Shown: positions 11,688 through 29,894 of the stretch, in pieces
Numbering within the stretch: position 1 is the stretch's first letter
Layout: each line of letters begins with the position of its first letter
NCBI RefSeq assembly: GCF_022869805.1
Contig: NZ_CP094974.1
Coordinates: forward strand, 2,170,001-2,234,000
DNA from: Halosolutus halophilus
Lineage (GTDB): Archaea > Halobacteriota > Halobacteria > Halobacteriales > Natrialbaceae
DNA: 64,000 nt
Reading direction: 5' to 3'
Position numbers and translations under genes: made by a program
The notes under the pieces: generated by a model
What the model saw: only the letters and a program-made list of their open reading frames with translations
Databases searched by the model: none
Told to the model about the DNA's origin: nothing

Positions 11688-13013
11688 ATGCCAATTGATG
11701 GCAATTCTCCAGGGGCAGAAGGAGCTAAGCGAACAGTAGGAACATTCAACCGACGGCGGTTTCTGAAAGCAACCAGCGCAGGGGCGTTAGCTGCCGGTGC
11801 CGGGTGTATAGGCGGTACTGGCGGCGATGGTGGCGATGGCGGCAATGGCGACGGGATAACACTCGGTGCATTGGTCGCGTTGCCAGGTGACTTCGCTGGC
11901 GGGACAGCCCATCAGGAAGCCGCTGAGCTGGCGGTTCAGCAAATCAACGACGACGGGGGCATCCTTGACCAGGAGGTCGATCTGATTGTCAAAGATACCC
12001 AGCTCGATCCGGCCACGGCCCGATCCCGGTACCGCGAACTCGTCATCGACGAGCAAGTCGATGCGACATTCGGGCTATTCGGCTCGGAGGAAGGACTGGC
12101 CGTCGCCGAAGAGATTCCAGAGCACGGGACACTGCACATCTTCGCCGGAGTCGCCGACACGGGGATCAACGATCAAATCCGGAACGACTACGATCAGTCC
12201 AAATACATGTTCCGGGCGATGTACAACGGCGTCCACTACGGCCGAAATTTGGCGGATGTAATGGACGCCAAGTGGGAGGACTGGGGATTCGAACGGATCG
12301 GGGTCGCTGTCGAGGACATCGAAGGATTCACCAACACGATCAAGCCGACCGCTCTCGACAACGCACCGGACTTCGTGGAAGTTGCGTTCGATCAATCTTT
12401 TTCCGTCGATACCACCGACTTCGCCCCGATCCTCGACCAGGCCGAGGACGAAGATATCGACATGCTGTTCGCGTTCGTCTCTCAGGCCGGCGTCGGCCTT
12501 ACGGCGGAATGGGCCCAGCGCCGGCCGGATTTCCACTACGGCGGTGCCGACGTCCACGCCGGTGAACCGGCCCAGTGGGAGAACACCGACGGGGTCATCG
12601 AGGGGGTCTGGTCGTACGTCGGCGGAGGTGCGCCCGGCGTCGAACCGACCGAGCGAACCGGCGAGATGATCGCCGCGCATGAGGAAATGCACGGTCACGT
12701 GCCCGAGCATGCGCAAGGGTACACGATGTATGACGCAGTCATGGCCTGGAAAGAGGCCGTTGAAATCGCGGAATCGATCGACTCCGACGAACTCGTCCCG
12801 GTGCTCGAACAGGATGTCGAGTTCGAGGCGACGACCGGGACGCTCTCCTTCCAGGAGCAGGATGCGGAGTTTCCGCACGACCCCGTCTTCGGTGATGACG
12901 GCGTCCGGCCGCCGATCATGCAGTGGCAGGAGGTCGACGGCGAGGGGACCCAAGTCGGACTGTGGCCCGACTCTGTCAAGGCGGGCGAACTGCAGGACCC
13001 ACCCTGGTTCTAG
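11688..13013 (+). CDS. ABC importer substrate-binding lipoprotein (branched-chain amino acid type)
   Basis: A 441-residue type-1 periplasmic binding protein. The N-terminus carries a Tat signal (NRRRFLK, residues 21-27) and a lipobox ending at Cys40 (AAGAGC), followed by a Gly/Asp linker, so the protein should be folded before export and anchored outside the membrane. The core shows LGALVALPGDFAG and the two-lobe pattern of LivK/AmiC-like proteins (Peripla_BP_6). It is the first gene of a five-gene importer, with a 250-nt gap before the permease. Related proteins bind amino acids, urea, amides or aromatic acids. Given neighbouring acyl-CoA genes, an organic acid is a reasonable guess. Confidence 0.92.
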   Translation: MPIDGNSPGAEGAKRTVGTFNRRRFLKATSAGALAAGAGCIGGTGGDGGDGGNGDGITLGALVALPGDFAGGTAHQEAAELAVQQINDDGGILDQEVDLIVKDTQLDPATARSRYRELVIDEQVDATFGLFGSEEGLAVAEEIPEHGTLHIFAGVADTGINDQIRNDYDQSKYMFRAMYNGVHYGRNLADVMDAKWEDWGFERIGVAVEDIEGFTNTIKPTALDNAPDFVEVAFDQSFSVDTTDFAPILDQAEDEDIDMLFAFVSQAGVGLTAEWAQRRPDFHYGGADVHAGEPAQWENTDGVIEGVWSYVGGGAPGVEPTERTGEMIAAHEEMHGHVPEHAQGYTMYDAVMAWKEAVEIAESIDSDELVPVLEQDVEFEATTGTLSFQEQDAEFPHDPVFGDDGVRPPIMQWQEVDGEGTQVGLWPDSVKAGELQDPPWF

Positions 13014-13263
13014 GTTACCGGTTTGCTCGGTTTCGTTCAACTCGTCGACGGTCGGCGCGTCGGCACCGCGTCAATGATGGGCATTCCCTTGTGAAGGCAA
13101 TCGAACCGGTCGCTGTCCGATCGAGCCGACCGATCGGTTCTCTACGCGCTCAGAATGTAAAACATCGGAAGTGATCACCGACGGTGTTTTCAGATTCTCG
13201 AAAAACCAGATTCGATCCCTCGATCACCGAAAATACTAAGTCACGTGTGAGACACCTACTGAC

Positions 13264-14127
13264 ATGGTCGATGTACTGCAACTAGCTACCAATGCGACCG
13301 TCCTGAGCGCGTTCTACGCGCTCATCGCTGTCGGATTTACCATGATATTCGGGGTCGCCGACATTCTTAATATCGCCCACGGTGCGGCCATCATCGTTGG
13401 CGGGTTTACAGCATACTATGCGACTAGAGTGGTGGAGGTGAACACTTGGGTCGGAGGGGCCGCGGCCGTAGTGCTCGGCGCCATCTTTAGCGTCCTCGTG
13501 TACAAGGTGTTCGTCAAGCGAGTCGAACACGACGAAATTCTCGTCGTGATCGTCACGCTCGCACTGTTACTCGTGACCGAATACACGTTTCGATTCCTAG
13601 CAGGATCGTCGACACATCTGATTCCAGGGCTCGTCTCCGGGAGAACGCACGTCGGTTCGGTCGGTATCCAGAACAACGAGATCATCATGTTCGTCCTGTC
13701 CTGGATCCTCATTATCGCCCTCCTCCTGCTCGTAAACCACACCTGGACGGGCCGGGGGATCAAGGCGATGAGTCAGACGAAACGTGGTGCCGCGCTCGTC
13801 GGCATCAACCACGAGCGGACGACGACGTACACGTACGCGATCGCGGGTGCGCTCGCCGGCCTCGCCGGCCTGTTTTTCGGAATCCGTAATGGAGTGACCT
13901 TTGACATGGGCTTGGATCCGCTACTGATTGCGTTTGCGATCGTCATCATCGGCGGAATCGGCTCGATCAAAGGGAGCGTCGTCGGCGCGTACATCGTCGG
14001 TGTCCTCGAGACAATTACGACGACGGTAATCGATGCCCGATTGACCGGCGTCATCGCGCTTGTGGTGCTACTGATCGTACTGTTGGTCAGGCCCCACGGC
14101 CTGTACGGACGACCAGGTGAGGAATAA
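13264..14127 (+). CDS. LivH-type ABC permease
   Basis: A 287-residue integral membrane protein with about eight hydrophobic helices, starting MVDVLQLATNATVLSAF. The EAA-like cytoplasmic loop is visible at GRGIKAMSQTKRGAALVGIN. It would form one half of the channel for the ligand delivered by the upstream lipoprotein. A TATA-like AATACTA about 25-30 nt before the start suggests a second promoter inside the cluster. The next permease starts only 2 nt after the stop. Confidence 0.93.
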   Translation: MVDVLQLATNATVLSAFYALIAVGFTMIFGVADILNIAHGAAIIVGGFTAYYATRVVEVNTWVGGAAAVVLGAIFSVLVYKVFVKRVEHDEILVVIVTLALLLVTEYTFRFLAGSSTHLIPGLVSGRTHVGSVGIQNNEIIMFVLSWILIIALLLLVNHTWTGRGIKAMSQTKRGAALVGINHERTTTYTYAIAGALAGLAGLFFGIRNGVTFDMGLDPLLIAFAIVIIGGIGSIKGSVVGAYIVGVLETITTTVIDARLTGVIALVVLLIVLLVRPHGLYGRPGEE

Positions 14128-14129
14128 CC

Positions 14130-15305
14130 ATGGCTGAAAACGCACATACGACGGGCAACGACGAATCGGGAGGCAGTATCGGCCGGCTCAGGCGCGTTCC
14201 ACCGAGTTACTACCTCTCTGTGGGTTTCCTGGCGTTCCTCGCACTGATCCCCGGCGTACTCGGGACGACGAATATCCTATTGCTCACCTATTCGTTGTTC
14301 TTCGTGATGTTCGTAATCAGTTGGGACTTCGTCTCGGGATACACCGGCCTCATGAGTTTCGGTCACACGCTGTTCTTCGCCGTAGGCGGGTACACGACCG
14401 CAATTCTGAACATCCACTACGGTGTCCACCCCATCCCCGGAATCGTCGGCGGGGTGATTCTGGCAGCGATAGCTGGTCTCCTGTACGGGCTGCCAGCGCG
14501 CAATATCGAAGGGCACTATCTCGCGCTGATGACGCTGCTCCCGCCGCTGATTCTGGAGCGTGTGTTTCGCCTGTTTAAGGATACGACCGGCGGCGAGACG
14601 GGTCTCATCGGTACCGAGAACTTGATCGAGATGGACAGCTTCGCCATGACGGCCTGGGTCAACTACTATCTCGCGTTCGGGCTGTTCCTCGTTATCTTCT
14701 TGCTCGCGTGGGTCATAACCCGATCGGACACGGGGACGATATTCACCGCGATCAAAGAGAGCGAAGATGCAGTCGCGTCCGTCGGGATCAACCCAAACAA
14801 GTACAAGGTCTACGCGTTCGTCATGAGCGCGATGATGGGTGGACTTGCGGGTGCCGTATTCGTCCACACGCCGGCCGGCAGCGCCTCACCGAGTCAGTTG
14901 CTCTCCCTCGTGGTGATAATCGACGTTCTGCTCGCGAGTATCCTCGGCGGTCTCGGAACGATCACCGGGGCTGTTGTCGGCGGCATGACGATCTTCTGGG
15001 TGCGCGAGTGGCTGAGTGACGTCAGCTGGACCATTCCGGTACTCGACATTGGCGTCAGCGACATCAACGACGTCCTGTTCTTCCTCTTGCTACTCGCGCT
15101 GCTCATGTTCCTCACCCAGGGACTCGTTCCGTGGGCCCAAGAACGCGGCCAGCGCTTGCTAGAGCGGCGCCGAGCAGACGATGCGGAGGTCGCAGCCGAT
15201 GGCGGGCGGACGCCTGACGATCGAACGGACGCCAGCCGACCGGAAGCCACAGGCGATCGATCGAACCGAGAACGAACCGCGGGTAACCAGGGTAAGACGC
15301 GATGA
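14130..15305 (+). CDS. LivM-type ABC permease
   Basis: A 391-residue membrane protein forming the second permease half. Ten or so hydrophobic segments are visible, with SGYTGLMSFGHTLFFAVGG near the N-terminus and an EAA-like loop at IKESEDAVASVGINPNKYK. The last ~55 residues are a hydrophilic, charged tail (RRRADDAEVAADGGRTPDD onward) that is longer than usual and probably lies in the cytoplasm. The stop overlaps the next ATG (ATGA), indicating translational coupling to the ATPase. Confidence 0.93.
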   Translation: MAENAHTTGNDESGGSIGRLRRVPPSYYLSVGFLAFLALIPGVLGTTNILLLTYSLFFVMFVISWDFVSGYTGLMSFGHTLFFAVGGYTTAILNIHYGVHPIPGIVGGVILAAIAGLLYGLPARNIEGHYLALMTLLPPLILERVFRLFKDTTGGETGLIGTENLIEMDSFAMTAWVNYYLAFGLFLVIFLLAWVITRSDTGTIFTAIKESEDAVASVGINPNKYKVYAFVMSAMMGGLAGAVFVHTPAGSASPSQLLSLVVIIDVLLASILGGLGTITGAVVGGMTIFWVREWLSDVSWTIPVLDIGVSDINDVLFFLLLLALLMFLTQGLVPWAQERGQRLLERRRADDAEVAADGGRTPDDRTDASRPEATGDRSNRERTAGNQGKTR

Positions 15306-16090
15306 GCCAGGAGATCAATGCGGCCAACGCGGGCGAAGCGAGCCGTGTGGTGGGAGAACCGATTCTGAAAGTAGACAGCCTGACAAAGAAATTCGGCGGA
15401 CTGACCGCCGTAGATAACCTCTCGTTCGAGGTCTACGAACAGGAAATTCTCGGGGTGATCGGGCCGAACGGAGCCGGGAAATCGACGACGTTCAACTGCA
15501 TTTTCGGCACGTACAAACCGACGCGTGGGACGGTCCGATTCGACGGCGAGGACATCACGGGCAAACCGGCGCACAGGGTCGCCAGAGCTGGCATTGCTCG
15601 GACGTTTCAGACGTTTCGACCGCTGGAAGACCGCGACGTCCTCGCGAACGTCGAACTGTCGAAGGTGTCTGACAAGCTCTTCACCTTCGACGGTATCTTC
15701 GGTGGGACGGAAGACGAGGCACAAGAGGTGTGCGAGCGGGTCGGCCTCGGTGACGACGTTCACAAGACGCCCGACGAGTTGCCTCACGCTGGTATGATCC
15801 GCCTCGAGATTGCCCGAGCGATCGCGACGGACCCGGACCTCCTCCTGATCGACGAACCGTTCGCCGGCCTGTCGGCGACGGAGGTCGAACGGCTTTCGAC
15901 GCTCTTTTCCGAGCTTCGTGAGGAGGGACTGACGCTCATCATCATCGATCACAACATGCGAGGACTCATGGAACTCATCGACCGCGGTGTCGTGATCAAC
16001 TTCGGCTCGAAGATCGCCGAAGGGTCTCCGGAGGAGATCCAGGCGGACGAGACAGTCCAGGAGGCTTACCTGGGAGGTGAGGAGATATGA
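15302..16090 (+). CDS. LivG-type ABC ATPase
   Basis: A 262-residue ABC ATPase. Walker A is GPNGAGKST, Walker B is LLLIDEPFAG and the switch histidine is in IIIDHNM. The signature motif reads ELPHAGMIRLEIARA rather than the consensus LSGGQ. I believe variants of this kind occur in LivG-like proteins, so I do not treat it as damage. It works with the overlapping LivF subunit to power the importer. Start ATG overlaps the permease stop by 4 nt. Confidence 0.93.
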   Translation: MSQEINAANAGEASRVVGEPILKVDSLTKKFGGLTAVDNLSFEVYEQEILGVIGPNGAGKSTTFNCIFGTYKPTRGTVRFDGEDITGKPAHRVARAGIARTFQTFRPLEDRDVLANVELSKVSDKLFTFDGIFGGTEDEAQEVCERVGLGDDVHKTPDELPHAGMIRLEIARAIATDPDLLLIDEPFAGLSATEVERLSTLFSELREEGLTLIIIDHNMRGLMELIDRGVVINFGSKIAEGSPEEIQADETVQEAYLGGEEI

Positions 16091-16800
16091 CCGCGAACAT
16101 GCCGCTGCTGGAGGCGTCCTCGCTGTCGGTCGCCTACGGGAAGGTACAGGCTCTTCGCGATGTCGATATCCATGTCGATTCGGGGGAAATCGTCTCGATC
16201 ATCGGCCCGAACGGTGCTGGCAAGACGACCTTCGCGGACACGATCAGCGGCTTTCTGCCGTACGAGGGGTCGGTCACGTACCGCGGAGAGGAAGTCGAGA
16301 TGGTTGAACAGAATTCGCTGGTCGAAGACGGTATGATCTACTGTACGGAAAAGCGTGATCTGTTTCCGTTCATGACCGTCGAGGAGAATCTGGAACTCGG
16401 CGCGTACCACAACCGCGACGCACTTGAGGAGAGCCGTGAGTTCGTCTACGACCTCTTCCCTCGGCTCGAAGAACGAGCGGATCAGGAGGCGAGAACCATG
16501 TCCGGCGGCGAACAGCAGATGCTCGCGATCGGCCGCTCGCTGATGGGTGATCCTACCCTCCTCATCCTCGACGAACCGACGATCGGACTCGCGCCCGTCA
16601 TCGTCAATGACATCAGTGATGCACTCGAGACGATCGTCGACCAGGGCGTTACCGTTCTGCTCGCGGAACAGAACGTCAGGTTCGCGCTCGACCACGCCGA
16701 TCGAATCTTCCTCCTCGAGAACGGAACCGTCAAGAAGGCGGGCATCGCATCGGAGATGAAGGGTGACGATTACATCCGCGAGACTTACGTGGGAACGTAG
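16087..16800 (+). CDS. LivF-type ABC ATPase
   Basis: A 237-residue second ATPase of the importer. Walker A GPNGAGKTT, signature MSGGEQQMLAIGRSL and Walker B LLILDEPTIGL are all canonical, with the E-N-V-R Q-loop/H-loop region LLAEQNVRFA in place of the switch histidine, as is normal for LivF. Start ATG overlaps the LivG stop by 4 nt. It is the last gene of the operon, and downstream sequence is degenerate. Confidence 0.93.
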   Translation: MTANMPLLEASSLSVAYGKVQALRDVDIHVDSGEIVSIIGPNGAGKTTFADTISGFLPYEGSVTYRGEEVEMVEQNSLVEDGMIYCTEKRDLFPFMTVEENLELGAYHNRDALEESREFVYDLFPRLEERADQEARTMSGGEQQMLAIGRSLMGDPTLLILDEPTIGLAPVIVNDISDALETIVDQGVTVLLAEQNVRFALDHADRIFLLENGTVKKAGIASEMKGDDYIRETYVGT

Positions 16801-21877: not shown

Positions 21878-22447
21878 ATGTCTATGTTCGATCCAGTGGC
21901 TGAAACTGAAGACGTGGGCCAAAAGCCCATCTCGCCCCGGTTAGAGAGCCTTGAGAATGCCCGAATCGGCCTGTTCGACAATGGAAAACCAGCTGCCGAA
22001 CCCGCACTGGCAGTGATCGGCGAGCGCCTACAGGACCGATACCCGGATGTCGAGATCGTGACCTACGCCGTCGAGCACCTCAACCGATTGAAAAACGACG
22101 ATGTGCTCGACCAAATCGGATCGTGGGCCGACGATGAGACTGACGCCTGTATCGGGGCGATCGGTGACTGCGGTTCCTGTACGAAGTTCCTCGTCTACGG
22201 GGTCAATGCGATTGAACGATCCGGGACGCCAGCGGTCGGGTTGATCGATAGCGGCTTCGCGCTCGACTGGGAGATGAACTCGCGGGACCTGGGGCGGCCC
22301 TTGCGACAGCACTCGGTCCCAGAGTACTCCGAGGTGACGGATATCGAACGGGTCCGTGAGCGAATCACCGACGAGGATATCGACGAACTGGTCGCCCGGT
22401 TGACCACGCCTCGAACCGAGGAGGAATTGGGCGACGGGGATCGGTGA
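21878..22447 (+). CDS. UGSC-family protein with Cys in place of Sec (CGSC)
   Basis: A 189-residue protein. Around residues 90-103 it reads ACIGAIGDCGSCTKFLVYG. This matches the redox motif of the UGSC (seleno)protein family, known from marine metagenome selenoproteomes, in which the first residue is selenocysteine; here both residues are Cys (codons TGC and TGT; C98, C101). The N-terminal part has a Rossmann-like start (ARIGLFDNGKPAA) and a PDVEIVTY strand. No membrane segment or signal is present. It overlaps the next gene by 4 nt and opens a three-gene operon ending in a thioredoxin-reductase-like enzyme, so a thiol-based redox function is likely. The reaction is unknown; a link to glycine/betaine-reductase-type chemistry is speculation. 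Confidence 0.82.
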   Translation: MSMFDPVAETEDVGQKPISPRLESLENARIGLFDNGKPAAEPALAVIGERLQDRYPDVEIVTYAVEHLNRLKNDDVLDQIGSWADDETDACIGAIGDCGSCTKFLVYGVNAIERSGTPAVGLIDSGFALDWEMNSRDLGRPLRQHSVPEYSEVTDIERVRERITDEDIDELVARLTTPRTEEELGDGDR

Positions 22448-23559
22448 CGATGCCCGTGGACGATCGCGATACCTCGATCGAAGCGACGACAGCTGAACTC
22501 TACGAACGGGGGGCGACCGACGGACTGCCGGTCGTTCCGCCATCCGAGGAACGGGTCGAACGTATGCTTGAAGGAACTGACCGTCCCCCCGAAACTGAAC
22601 TCGGGACGTTAGGAACCAGAGAGGGATCTTTGACGGTCGAAACCGTCGCTGTGAACGGTGTGATGGCTGGCTGTCTCCCGATTCATATGCCGGTCCTGCT
22701 CGCTGGTGCGGAGGCCCTCGTGGACCCGAAGTCGAACGCAATTCAGGCCTCAGTAAGTACGGGTTCGTGGGCCTACTTGTTCCTCCTCAACGGCCCCATC
22801 AAGGAAGTTCTTGACGTCAACTGCGGAACCGCCGCGTTTGGTCCCGGCTTTCGGACGAACCGGACCGTCGCCCGTGCACTTGGCCTCATCTACAAGAACT
22901 GTGCGCGCATCCACCCCGGCGAAAAGGAGATGTCAACGCTAGGCTCCCCGTTCAAGTTCAGTCTCCTTGCCGGCGAGAACGAGGAGGAAAGTCCCTGGGA
23001 TCCTCTCCACGTCGAACGTGGATACGACGCCAACGAGAGCACGATCACCTTCGCTGCCCCGAACAGCTACCTCCAGACGTTACCACGCCGGATCAGTCCC
23101 GAGGGCGTCCTCGCGAACCTGATCCACAACACGCCACCTGGGATGACCGGAATGAAGACCGAAACCGCAAACGAGCGCTTTGAAGGGTTCCAGACAGAGG
23201 TGTTCTACGGACTCTGTCCATACAACGCGGGGGAACTGGAAGACTACAGTAAGTCAGAGATCAAGTCGTACATCTACGAGAACGCCCGGAACCCGGCCCG
23301 CGAGTCGGGGCTCGGAATCGGAGATGATCCCGACGGTGGGACGCTCCCGCCGATCTCGGTCCGGCAGTTCGACGACCCCGACCGGATCAACCTGTTCGTC
23401 GCGGGGGGGAGCGGCCGATTCAACGCGATCATCGGCCCGACGATGGGGGGTCCCACCACGAAGCGAATCTCCCTGCCGGACAATTGGGAGTCGCTCGTCG
23501 AACGGTACGGTCCCGAACTCGACCGGGACTGGGGCGTGGGCTGGAAAGGGCCAAGATGA
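22444..23559 (+). CDS. Conserved partner of the CGSC protein, function unknown
   Basis: A 371-residue soluble protein, start GTG at 22444 (or ATG at 22450) overlapping the CGSC gene. It has no transmembrane segment. Recognisable patterns: GLPVVPPSEERVERML near the N-terminus, AVNGVMAGCLPIHMPVLL, LDVNCGTAAFGPG, a YKNCARIHPGEK segment, FAAPNSYLQTLPRR, and a glycine-rich C-terminal FVAGGSGRFNAIIGP. Three cysteines (in MAGCLP, DVNCGT, KNCARIH) look like candidates for redox or metal roles. I do not recognise a named family. Four-nt overlaps on both sides indicate coupled, probably stoichiometric production with the CGSC protein and the reductase, so a complex is plausible. Confidence 0.8.
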   Translation: MTMPVDDRDTSIEATTAELYERGATDGLPVVPPSEERVERMLEGTDRPPETELGTLGTREGSLTVETVAVNGVMAGCLPIHMPVLLAGAEALVDPKSNAIQASVSTGSWAYLFLLNGPIKEVLDVNCGTAAFGPGFRTNRTVARALGLIYKNCARIHPGEKEMSTLGSPFKFSLLAGENEEESPWDPLHVERGYDANESTITFAAPNSYLQTLPRRISPEGVLANLIHNTPPGMTGMKTETANERFEGFQTEVFYGLCPYNAGELEDYSKSEIKSYIYENARNPARESGLGIGDDPDGGTLPPISVRQFDDPDRINLFVAGGSGRFNAIIGPTMGGPTTKRISLPDNWESLVERYGPELDRDWGVGWKGPR

Positions 23560-24467
23560 TGGTGGACGTCCTCGTCGTCGGCGCCGGGCCGGCCGGACTC
23601 TCGGCCGGTCTGTCCGCCAACCGCGCAGGGCTCGAGACGACGGTTCTCGAAGCCGAGAGCGTCGGTGGCGAACTCGTCAACAGGAACACCATCGAGAACC
23701 TGCCGGGTCACCCGCCGGTTTCCGGAACCGAGTTACGATCGACGTTCGTCGAGCAGTTCCGGGCGGCTGGCGGGTCGATCACGCTCGGTACCGTCGAGCG
23801 GGTCTACGACGACGATCCGTTCCGGGTAACGACGACCGGCGCGGAGTACCGGTCCCGAAGCGTCGTCCTGGCGACCGGCGGCGTCCCGACGTCCCTCGGC
23901 GTCCCCGGCGAAGAGACATTCACCGGCCGCGGCGTCTTCCGCTGTGCGACGTGTGACGGGCCGCTGTACGCAGGCAAGACCGTCGCCGTCGCCGGCAGTT
24001 CAGACTGGGCTGCGACCGACGCCCTCTTTCTGACGAATCACGCCGATCGCGTGGTCCTGATCGAGCCGGGCGACCGCCTCGACGCTGGCGACCCCCTTCG
24101 CGATCGGCTTGTCGACAACCCGACGGTCGACGTTCGAACTCGAACGGAAATCACCGAGATCCAGGGTGAGGACGTCCTCAAACGACTCCAGCTGGTCGAT
24201 CGCGACGACGGGCGCGAGTACGCCGAGTCCGTTGGCGGCCTCTACGTTCAGCAGGGAATCGATCCCGCCACCGACGCCTTCTCGGACGTCGTCTCGCTGA
24301 CCGACCGTGGAGAGGTCGTCGTCGACGCGGGACTCGAGACCGACACGTCGGGGATCTTCGCCGCCGGCGACGTTCGCCAGTCGTCGCCGCGAACTGTCGC
24401 TGCCGCGATCGGCGACGGTACCACGGCGGCGCACTCGGCCGTGTCGTACGTGGAACGAACGCGGTAG
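23556..24467 (+). CDS. Thioredoxin-reductase-like flavoprotein with CATC motif
   Basis: A 303-residue two-domain flavoenzyme. FAD loop VVGAGPAGLSAG (residues 7-18), a redox pair RCATCDG (Cys130, Cys133), and the C-terminal FAD motif GIFAAGDVR (267-274) place it in the thioredoxin reductase family. The pyridine-nucleotide loop is atypical: AVAGSSDWAATDA instead of GGGxSAxE, and the HRRxxxR pattern that grips the NADPH phosphate is replaced by LIEPGDRLDAG. So NADPH use is doubtful; NADH or ferredoxin are alternatives. ATG overlaps the partner stop by 4 nt. It probably recycles the CGSC disulfide. The next gene is convergent, 35 nt away. Confidence 0.85.
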   Translation: MMVDVLVVGAGPAGLSAGLSANRAGLETTVLEAESVGGELVNRNTIENLPGHPPVSGTELRSTFVEQFRAAGGSITLGTVERVYDDDPFRVTTTGAEYRSRSVVLATGGVPTSLGVPGEETFTGRGVFRCATCDGPLYAGKTVAVAGSSDWAATDALFLTNHADRVVLIEPGDRLDAGDPLRDRLVDNPTVDVRTRTEITEIQGEDVLKRLQLVDRDDGREYAESVGGLYVQQGIDPATDAFSDVVSLTDRGEVVVDAGLETDTSGIFAAGDVRQSSPRTVAAAIGDGTTAAHSAVSYVERTR

Positions 24468-28670: not shown

Positions 28671-29894
28671 ATGGACCGCAATTACAATCTGGGGCTCGAT
28701 GGCGGTGACGGGGCGCTTGACGGCACCGAGGGCACCGTCGCCTTCGAGGCACTGGTGGAATCAGGCGACGCCGCCGAACCTCTTCCGGACCACGAGGTCG
28801 ACCCCGAACAAGGTCTCCTCGTGTTCTACACCTCGGGGACGACCGGCCTGCTGAAGGGAGTCGTGATTAGCCACCGCGCCTGGATCGCTCGCGGTGACAA
28901 CTACGTCGTAGATTTCGACGTGCAGTCGGGTGACTGTCAACTCTCCTGGACGCCACTGTTCCACATCGTCTCCGCCAACTGGCTTCCGACGATAGCGTCC
29001 GTCGGTGGCATTTACTATCCGATCGACGGATTCGAGACCGCGCGAATCGTCGAGATCCTCCAGGAGGACGGTGGCATCGGCTGGTTCGTCCTACTTTTCG
29101 GTGTGGTCGGACAGTTACTCGAGTCTATGGACGAACACAATGTTGACCTCAACACGTTCCGGGAGATCCGTAATATCGGTGCGCTCGTCCATTTGATCGA
29201 TCTCAAGAAGGTCGAGCAAGTCACCGAACTGTTCGACATGCCCTTCAAGAACTCCTACGGAGCGATGGAGGTCAGCAACGTACTCAGCGCCGCCAACGTT
29301 GTACCGTTCGATGTCCGCCCCGGTCCGGAAGAGTTGGCGAAGGTCGAGTCGTCATGGGTCGACCTCAAACTGATCGATGAAGACTGGAACGAGGACGAGG
29401 GCCACGGCGAACTCGCCGTCCGCAGACCAGTCGTCTGTAGCGGCTACTTCAAGAACCCGGAGGCCAATCGAGCGGACTTCGAGGACGGCTGGTTTCGGAC
29501 GGGAGATATCTTCGAGCACAACGACGACGGTACCTATAGTTTTGTCAATCGGCGCAAGTACCTCATCAAATCCGGTGGAGAGAACATCTATCCAGCGGAG
29601 ATCGAAGACGTGTTGCTCGAGAACGGACTCGTTGAGGAGGCGATCGTCGTTCGTGTCCCGGACGAGAAGTGGGGTGAGGTTCCCCGCGCCGTCGTCGCAA
29701 CACACGAACCAGACGAACTGGATGCCGAGGATCTGCTCGCCGCGGTCGAAGAACGCTTCGCGAACTACAAACTCCCTCACTACGTCAACGTCGTCACGCC
29801 TGACGTGCTCCCCCGGTCGGAAACGGGGAAAATCGTCCGCGAGGACGTCCAAGCGTGGAACCTCGACCCCGACGAACGCATCAGGGAGGTCTGA
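28671..29894 (+). pseudogene. AMP-dependent acyl-CoA ligase with in-frame N-domain deletion
   Basis: A 407-residue frame, about 140 residues shorter than its relatives at 18388 and 24503. The first ~12 residues (MDRNYNLGLDGG) match their N-terminus, then the sequence jumps to the region just before the P-loop. The P-loop reads YTSGTTGLLKG, with Leu replacing the nearly invariant Pro. Downstream motifs remain (NSYGAMEVSN, GWFRTGD, KYLIKSGGENIYPAE, LPRSETGK). Loss of the first subdomain should abolish folding or acyl binding, so I call it a decayed copy although the frame is open. Confidence 0.75.

Follow-up and report, generated by a model that had tools for sequence, protein, structure and literature searches.

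What does a UGSC protein do, and with which partners does it work? UGSC proteins were predicted as selenoproteins by the authors of the Global Ocean Sampling (GOS) study (PLoS Genet 2008, PMC2398784). In the GOS metagenomes they rank with the most abundant families of selenoproteins, and they have been without a function since 2008. Three tandem genes of the haloarchaeon Halosolutus halophilus, located in a 64,000-nucleotide stretch of DNA that we refer to as the window, raise this question for a form of the family that is encoded without selenocysteine (Sec). An earlier note, made from the DNA letters alone, read the three genes as a self-contained reductase system and knew of no described haloarchaeal function for it; the literature that we searched likewise gives none for UGSC. 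Here, we describe the genes, their relationship to known enzymes, and a possible mechanism.

A cysteine form of the UGSC family

The three genes lie in tandem on the + strand, at positions 21878–24467 of the window. Re-reading the coordinates from the sequence bore out the 4-nt overlaps described before: the first two genes share GTGA (22444–22447), and the second and third share ATGA (23556–23559). An alternative ATG start for the second gene, which we refer to as P2, lies 6 nt inward of its GTG; if it is used, the first overlap is lost. The features discussed below are as follows:

21878..22447, + strand: UGSC-family protein, Cys form, 189 aa (PF24696 match, AlphaFold model, GrdB/PrdB homology)
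22169..22180, + strand: CGSC redox motif, C98 and C101 (sequence; conserved in homologues)
22444..23559, + strand: P2, the UGSC partner, 371 aa, GTG start (adjacency, fusion, co-occurrence, AlphaFold model, residue counts)
22672..22674, + strand: codon of P2 Cys77, in an NGVMAGC stretch (Cys in 151/156 homologues)
23556..24467, + strand: thioredoxin-reductase-like FAD enzyme, 303 aa (TIGR01292, motif comparison)
23943..23954, + strand: CATC motif of the thioredoxin-reductase-like enzyme, residues 130–133 (sequence)

Gene 1 matches the Pfam UGSC profile PF24696 over positions 2–170 of 172 (E 3.6e-25; 89.5 bits, with a cut-off of 25). Its score against NCBIfam NF041046 is 63.2 bits, far under the curated cut-off of 125, and it is therefore a divergent member of the family. 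So low a score would leave the gene annotated as “hypothetical”, which is the annotation of its relative on plasmid pHTUR01 of Haloterrigena turkmenica. The GDCGSCT stretch occupies residues 96–102, with TGC at codon 98 and TGT at codon 101; with the Pfam match, these codons confirm the earlier assignment of gene 1 to the UGSC family as a Cys form. The note had also proposed checking whether the two cysteines persist in homologues, and they do. Of 138 homologues, 134 have Cys or an in-frame TGA (counted as Cys) at position 98, and 136 have Cys at position 101. Because both positions are near-invariant, the motif is not a chance occurrence.

In most bacterial homologues, position 98 is an in-frame TGA, i.e., selenocysteine. 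Each of the 48 alphaproteobacterial UGSC matches contains exactly one TGA (48/48), and a SelB cluster is present in 13 of the collected loci. A UGSC selenoprotein is recognized by a TGA at the first motif position together with a tRNA-Sec; the window gene has neither mark, no tRNA-Sec in its genome scoring over the Rfam cut-off. Compared with the family as defined by PF24696/NF041046, the window gene shares the full-length Pfam match, the motif, and the place directly upstream of P2. It differs in having Cys for Sec, in being a separate, overlapping gene rather than part of a fusion, and in belonging to a divergent haloarchaeal clade. The module in the window is real, and is a variant of the already known but uncharacterised UGSC family.

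UGSC and P2

P2 has no family or structure match in Pfam, NCBIfam or the PDB, and a Pfam scan of its homologues returned nothing significant. A genome scan with P2 yielded 553 relatives, from which 79 loci were kept. Since the loci used to assess adjacency were thus gathered by means of P2, UGSC and P2 were also searched for separately over whole genomes. Of about 340 genomes from the phylum (draws of 345 and 340), the same 5 contain UGSC and P2, as do the same 17 among 190 Alphaproteobacteria; no genome with only UGSC or only P2 was seen in these separate searches. Judged from these genomic patterns, P2 is the obligate partner of UGSC.

The two genes are also close neighbors. UGSC directly adjoins P2 in 131 of 138 cases, with a median gap of 22 nt, and the divergence of the two proteins is correlated (r 0.92, against a maximum of 0.14 in 1000 permutations; common ancestry and the division into subfamilies add to this value). 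One continuous UGSC–P2 reading frame, scored at the DNA level and with related loci included, is found in 89 of the 131 adjacent pairs; 85 of these fusions run across a Sec TGA, and 4 have neither Sec nor Cys at position 98. UGSC and P2 are almost certainly two halves of one enzyme. The earlier note was right that the partner belongs to no recognised family, but it understated the role of P2, which is that of the second half of the same enzyme. In GOS metagenomes, a UGSC domain was found fused to an “Unknown_1” domain (PMC2398784). In both that arrangement and the window pair, a UGSC domain is joined to or paired with an uncharacterised domain, and Unknown_1 is probably the same partner as P2.

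Probable kinship with GrdB and PrdB

A thioredoxin-like fold was suggested for UGSC in 2008. The AlphaFold model of gene 1 (pLDDT 95.3), which is a prediction and not a solved structure, has strands and helices that alternate throughout in a Rossmann-like manner, and no thioredoxin-type terminal hairpin. The predicted fold is therefore not thioredoxin-like. In the model, CGSC lies at the N-terminus of a helix formed by residues 99–114.

Profile comparison points to a different relationship. With hhalign, UGSC matches the pooled selenoprotein subunits GrdB/PrdB (PF07355) of glycine and D-proline reductase (probability 96.9, P 1.9e-10), GrdB alone (P 3e-10) and PrdB alone (P 4.6e-9); the best P among 133 decoy families built in the same way was 0.014. 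When run on a small set rich in GrdB, hmmsearch also found individual GrdB proteins, at E 1.8e-10. The hhalign pairing places CGSC over UGTC, and matches the preceding Asp and the following Glu and Gly. As far as profile similarity can tell, UGSC and the Sec domain of GrdB/PrdB are thus very probably distant homologues. UGSC also resembles GrdE weakly, in the C-terminal part of the latter (P 9.6e-5), which fits a shared Rossmann-like ancestry. Profile searches of the PDB gave matches at chance level for both UGSC and P2, and the best VIA match of UGSC is a chain of the MCR activation complex (Z 11.1). We found no statement of the GrdB/PrdB kinship in the UGSC literature searched.

The two systems are alike in having a homologous Sec domain and a separate partner protein, and the dithiol reductants of the clostridial GrdB/PrdB systems can be counted as a further likeness. 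They differ in several respects. First, the UGSC motif has one Cys fewer than that of GrdB (UxxCxxC). Second, there is no match to PF07355 itself, either in the window genome or among the families listed for 62 UGSC members. Third, the window genome has no match to PF09338, the pyruvoyl proprotein GrdE/PrdA, or to PF04723 (GrdA), and P2 as a homologue of GrdE/PrdA was tried and rejected (hhalign P 0.45). Together, these absences and the unrelatedness of P2 mean that we are not dealing with a glycine or proline reductase. As a separate observation, two UGSC-bearing Alphaproteobacteria (G355 and G362; loci L105, L106 and L111–L121) have several short PF07355 genes of PrdB-like type that lack a PF09338 partner; these are further relatives of GrdB.

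Because UGSC is homologous to GrdB/PrdB, we propose GrdB/PrdB-like chemistry for UGSC–P2. The pair would be a reductive enzyme for organic acids or CoA esters in which a thiol takes the place of the selenol, a reading that we hold tentatively and rate a little short of even. With P2 unrelated to GrdE/PrdA and PF09338 absent, the substrate activation of GrdB/PrdB is absent, and for that reason kinship in a single domain may not settle which reaction is catalysed.

The partner P2

The residues of P2 that are invariant or almost so are C77 (151/156 homologues), N139, R144 (155/156), N152, E178 and W185 (156/156), and K270. The “conserved-looking cysteines” noted earlier in this protein therefore come down to a single near-invariant Cys, with no pair. 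By inference from sequence, the conserved residues would fit an anion-binding active site, and P2 is a probable, still putative, substrate-binding half.

The AlphaFold model of P2 has a pLDDT of 89.5. Foldseek returns weak matches to class I fumarase and to Toblerone-fold hydrolases (best E 1.1e-3, TM about 0.25), and residues 207–333 have a chorismate-mutase-like arrangement with VIA Z scores of up to 5.7, under the trustworthy level. P2 as a fumarase-type Fe-S enzyme was considered and set aside, given the single conserved Cys and the weak fold match.

The thioredoxin-reductase-like gene

Gene 3 is a flavin disulfide reductase with CATC, as first read: it matches TIGR01292 with 267 bits, under the equivalog cut-off of 343, and has the FAD-binding GxGxxG in addition to CATC. 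Its NADPH motifs are degenerate (GSSDWA for GxGxxA, and IEPGDRLDA for HRRxxxR); the electron donor may therefore not be NADPH. Gene 3 is a paralogue of the TrxBs of its own genome (35–36% identity). It shares with TrxB the FAD fold and the CATC active site, and differs from it in the sub-equivalog score, in the degenerate NADPH motifs, and in forming its own clade beside the chromosomal TrxBs.

Of 105 loci, 13 have a CxxC thioredoxin-reductase-like gene ≤150 nt from UGSC–P2, as does the window in addition. Such a gene is also linked to the pair in Roseovarius, and an Arthrobacter plasmid has the order trxB-trxA-P2-UGSC. In three betaproteobacterial loci (L063, L070 and L076), it lies upstream of UGSC, at a distance of no more than 4 kb and on the other strand; in L076, a SelB-type gene lies between the two. 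The tree does not point to a single origin of the archaeal and bacterial linked reductases, which fall in separate clades with the host's own TrxBs between them. If such genes were recruited more than once, that alone would speak for a functional link. The reductase gene is a recurrent but optional partner of UGSC–P2. The module proposed in the earlier note, for which it had suggested a search for co-occurrence of the three genes, is therefore upheld in part: UGSC and P2 are conserved and were found together in both separate genome searches, but the reductase adjoins them in only a smaller share of loci. The core thus consists of two genes, to which a dedicated reductase may be added. Judging from its place and sequence, gene 3 is the likely reductant of the UGSC disulfide.

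The same neighbors bear on another explanation, in which UGSC–P2 is a thiol/disulfide oxidoreductase or a peroxidase that works through C98 and C101, with P2 as a docking or substrate domain. A UxxC motif, thioredoxin reductase and thioredoxin neighbors, and the placing of UGSC among thioredoxin-like redox proteins in the literature would all agree with such an activity. We consider it unlikely, since the predicted fold of UGSC is not thioredoxin-like, its homologues GrdB and PrdB act on carbon, and the many paralogous pairs (up to 8 per genome) beside genes for organic-acid transport and CoA transfer look catabolic rather than defensive. For the reductive reading, in turn, it is an adverse finding that most UGSC–P2 loci have no adjacent reductase.

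Gene neighborhood

The earlier note placed the array among acyl-CoA ligases. The closest relatives do not share this setting: in Salinadaptatus and Natronolimnohabitans, the module has nothing beside it that corresponds to the ligases, the SDR or the SnoaL gene of the window, and we do not regard the flanking genes as parts of it. One AMP-binding enzyme ORF of the window (28671–29894) matches its Pfam model from position 143 on, and is probably an N-terminally truncated acyl-CoA ligase or has a mis-set start. Upstream, at 11688–16800, is a branched-chain amino acid-type ABC transporter, its receptor and permease assigned by Pfam and the rest from gene order; this is possibly a putative uptake system of a catabolic region.

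Across loci, recurring neighbors include TctC-type, TAXI/TRAP and other solute receptors, family III CoA transferases, MmgE/PrpD, acyl-CoA dehydrogenases, CoA ester lyases, the isocitrate lyase/PEP mutase family, aconitase X and RraA. Taken as raw occurrences, uncorrected for genomic background, these neighbors point to the catabolism of organic acids and CoA esters; gene families of this kind are common in the genomes concerned. A phosphosulfolactate-synthase-like gene near UGSC–P2 in Arthrobacter (L196, 5659–6447) and Natrinema zhouii (L191, 6871–7338) is a possible hint at sulfur-containing organic acids.

In a number of full-length fusions, the motif begins with Met, Ser or some other residue in place of Sec or Cys (L189, L190, L047, L062, L088 and L028). 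The examples from Vibrio europaeus (L189, 9158–11005) and Sporomusa termitida (L190, 9350–11104) adjoin aconitase X and DUF126 genes, and may represent a non-redox subfamily. That full fusions exist without Sec or Cys at position 98, a point against the reductive reading, means that the fold can work without it, or that those copies act differently. Neighbors of this type would suit a reaction without net reduction, catalysed by a lyase, isomerase or transferase that uses Sec/Cys98 as a nucleophile, with the reductase merely keeping thiols reduced; lyases and CoA transferases recur near the pair, and the weak resemblances of P2 to class I fumarase and Toblerone-fold hydrolases lean the same way. 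The fold matches are poor, however (E about 1e-3, TM about 0.25), the retention of Cys101 in 136 of 138 homologues suggests a disulfide step, and dedicated thioredoxin reductase neighbors recur. We regard this explanation as quite improbable.

Distribution

Unlike GrdB/PrdB, UGSC is found here in haloarchaea and otherwise largely in aerobic bacteria. In haloarchaea, the distribution of UGSC–P2 is sparse. One haloarchaeal UGSC clade has 5 members (support 100/98), all of the Cys form; a second lineage, of Halalkalicoccus type, clusters with another archaeal family in the tree. With two lineages in the tree, the family probably entered haloarchaea on no fewer than two occasions. Several haloarchaeal copies are on megaplasmids, and the pair is also found on an IncP plasmid. 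Sparse occurrence, two separate haloarchaeal lineages and plasmid location are features that one might expect of a two-subunit detoxifier of thiol-reactive compounds (organometals or haloacids) carried on catabolic plasmids or islands. We think this very improbable: no metal-resistance genes lie directly beside the pair in the loci read, and genomes with many paralogues have them with organic-acid genes.

Two genomes from another family of the same phylum (G209 and G219) have a UGSC gene with an in-frame TGA (L006 and L009) and a tRNA-Sec well over the cut-off, at 76 bits (L096 and L097). An Archaeoglobi type has been reported to encode Sec (PMC9499178). The two genomes are possibly of this type, and UGSC may therefore be one of its selenoproteins. 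Rfam found no SECIS element in the UGSC–P2 gap of the Sec-encoding archaea, where the UGSC ORF extends through most of the gap.

Possible mechanism

In glycine and D-proline reductase, the selenol breaks a bond at carbon, and cleavage of the selenoether on product release gives a selenenylsulfide that is reduced by a dithiol (PMC10298544). GrdB-like proteins are also a candidate C–F cleaving enzyme for fluoroacetate (PMC10838667). The reductive reading of UGSC–P2 is supported computationally by the pairing and fusion of the two genes, the conservation of the motif, the GrdB/PrdB homology, the non-thioredoxin predicted fold, and the recurrent link to a reductase. Under this reading, UGSC–P2 would be one soluble enzyme, made as a single Sec polypeptide by many bacteria and, in the window, as a Cys form split over two genes, and we infer the following steps: (i) P2 would bind the substrate, probably an organic acid or a CoA ester; (ii) Cys98 of UGSC (Sec in bacteria), at the N-terminus of its helix, would attack an activated carbon, as is proposed for GrdB/PrdB; (iii) a leaving group would be expelled, giving a thioether or selenothioether at position 98; (iv) Cys101 would resolve the thioether, forming the C98–C101 disulfide and releasing the reduced product; (v) the thioredoxin-reductase-like flavoprotein would reduce this disulfide, directly or via a thioredoxin.

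A broader proposal is that UGSC–P2 is a new class of Sec/Cys reductive enzyme, in which a GrdB/PrdB-derived domain is combined with a new, pyruvoyl-free substrate subunit and has diversified to act on many different substrates, and which reached haloarchaea as a split Cys form with its own flavoprotein reductase. This proposal is possible, though on balance we doubt it.

Implications for the UGSC family

What is new for UGSC is that it would be one half of a two-part enzyme, almost certainly so, with a Sec domain that is very probably kin to glycine and D-proline reductase and is not predicted to have a thioredoxin fold. This kinship would correct the fold guess in the literature, and renders the function of the family testable. 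The haloarchaeal Cys version, encoded without selenocysteine, offers an expressible form in which to test what UGSC does.
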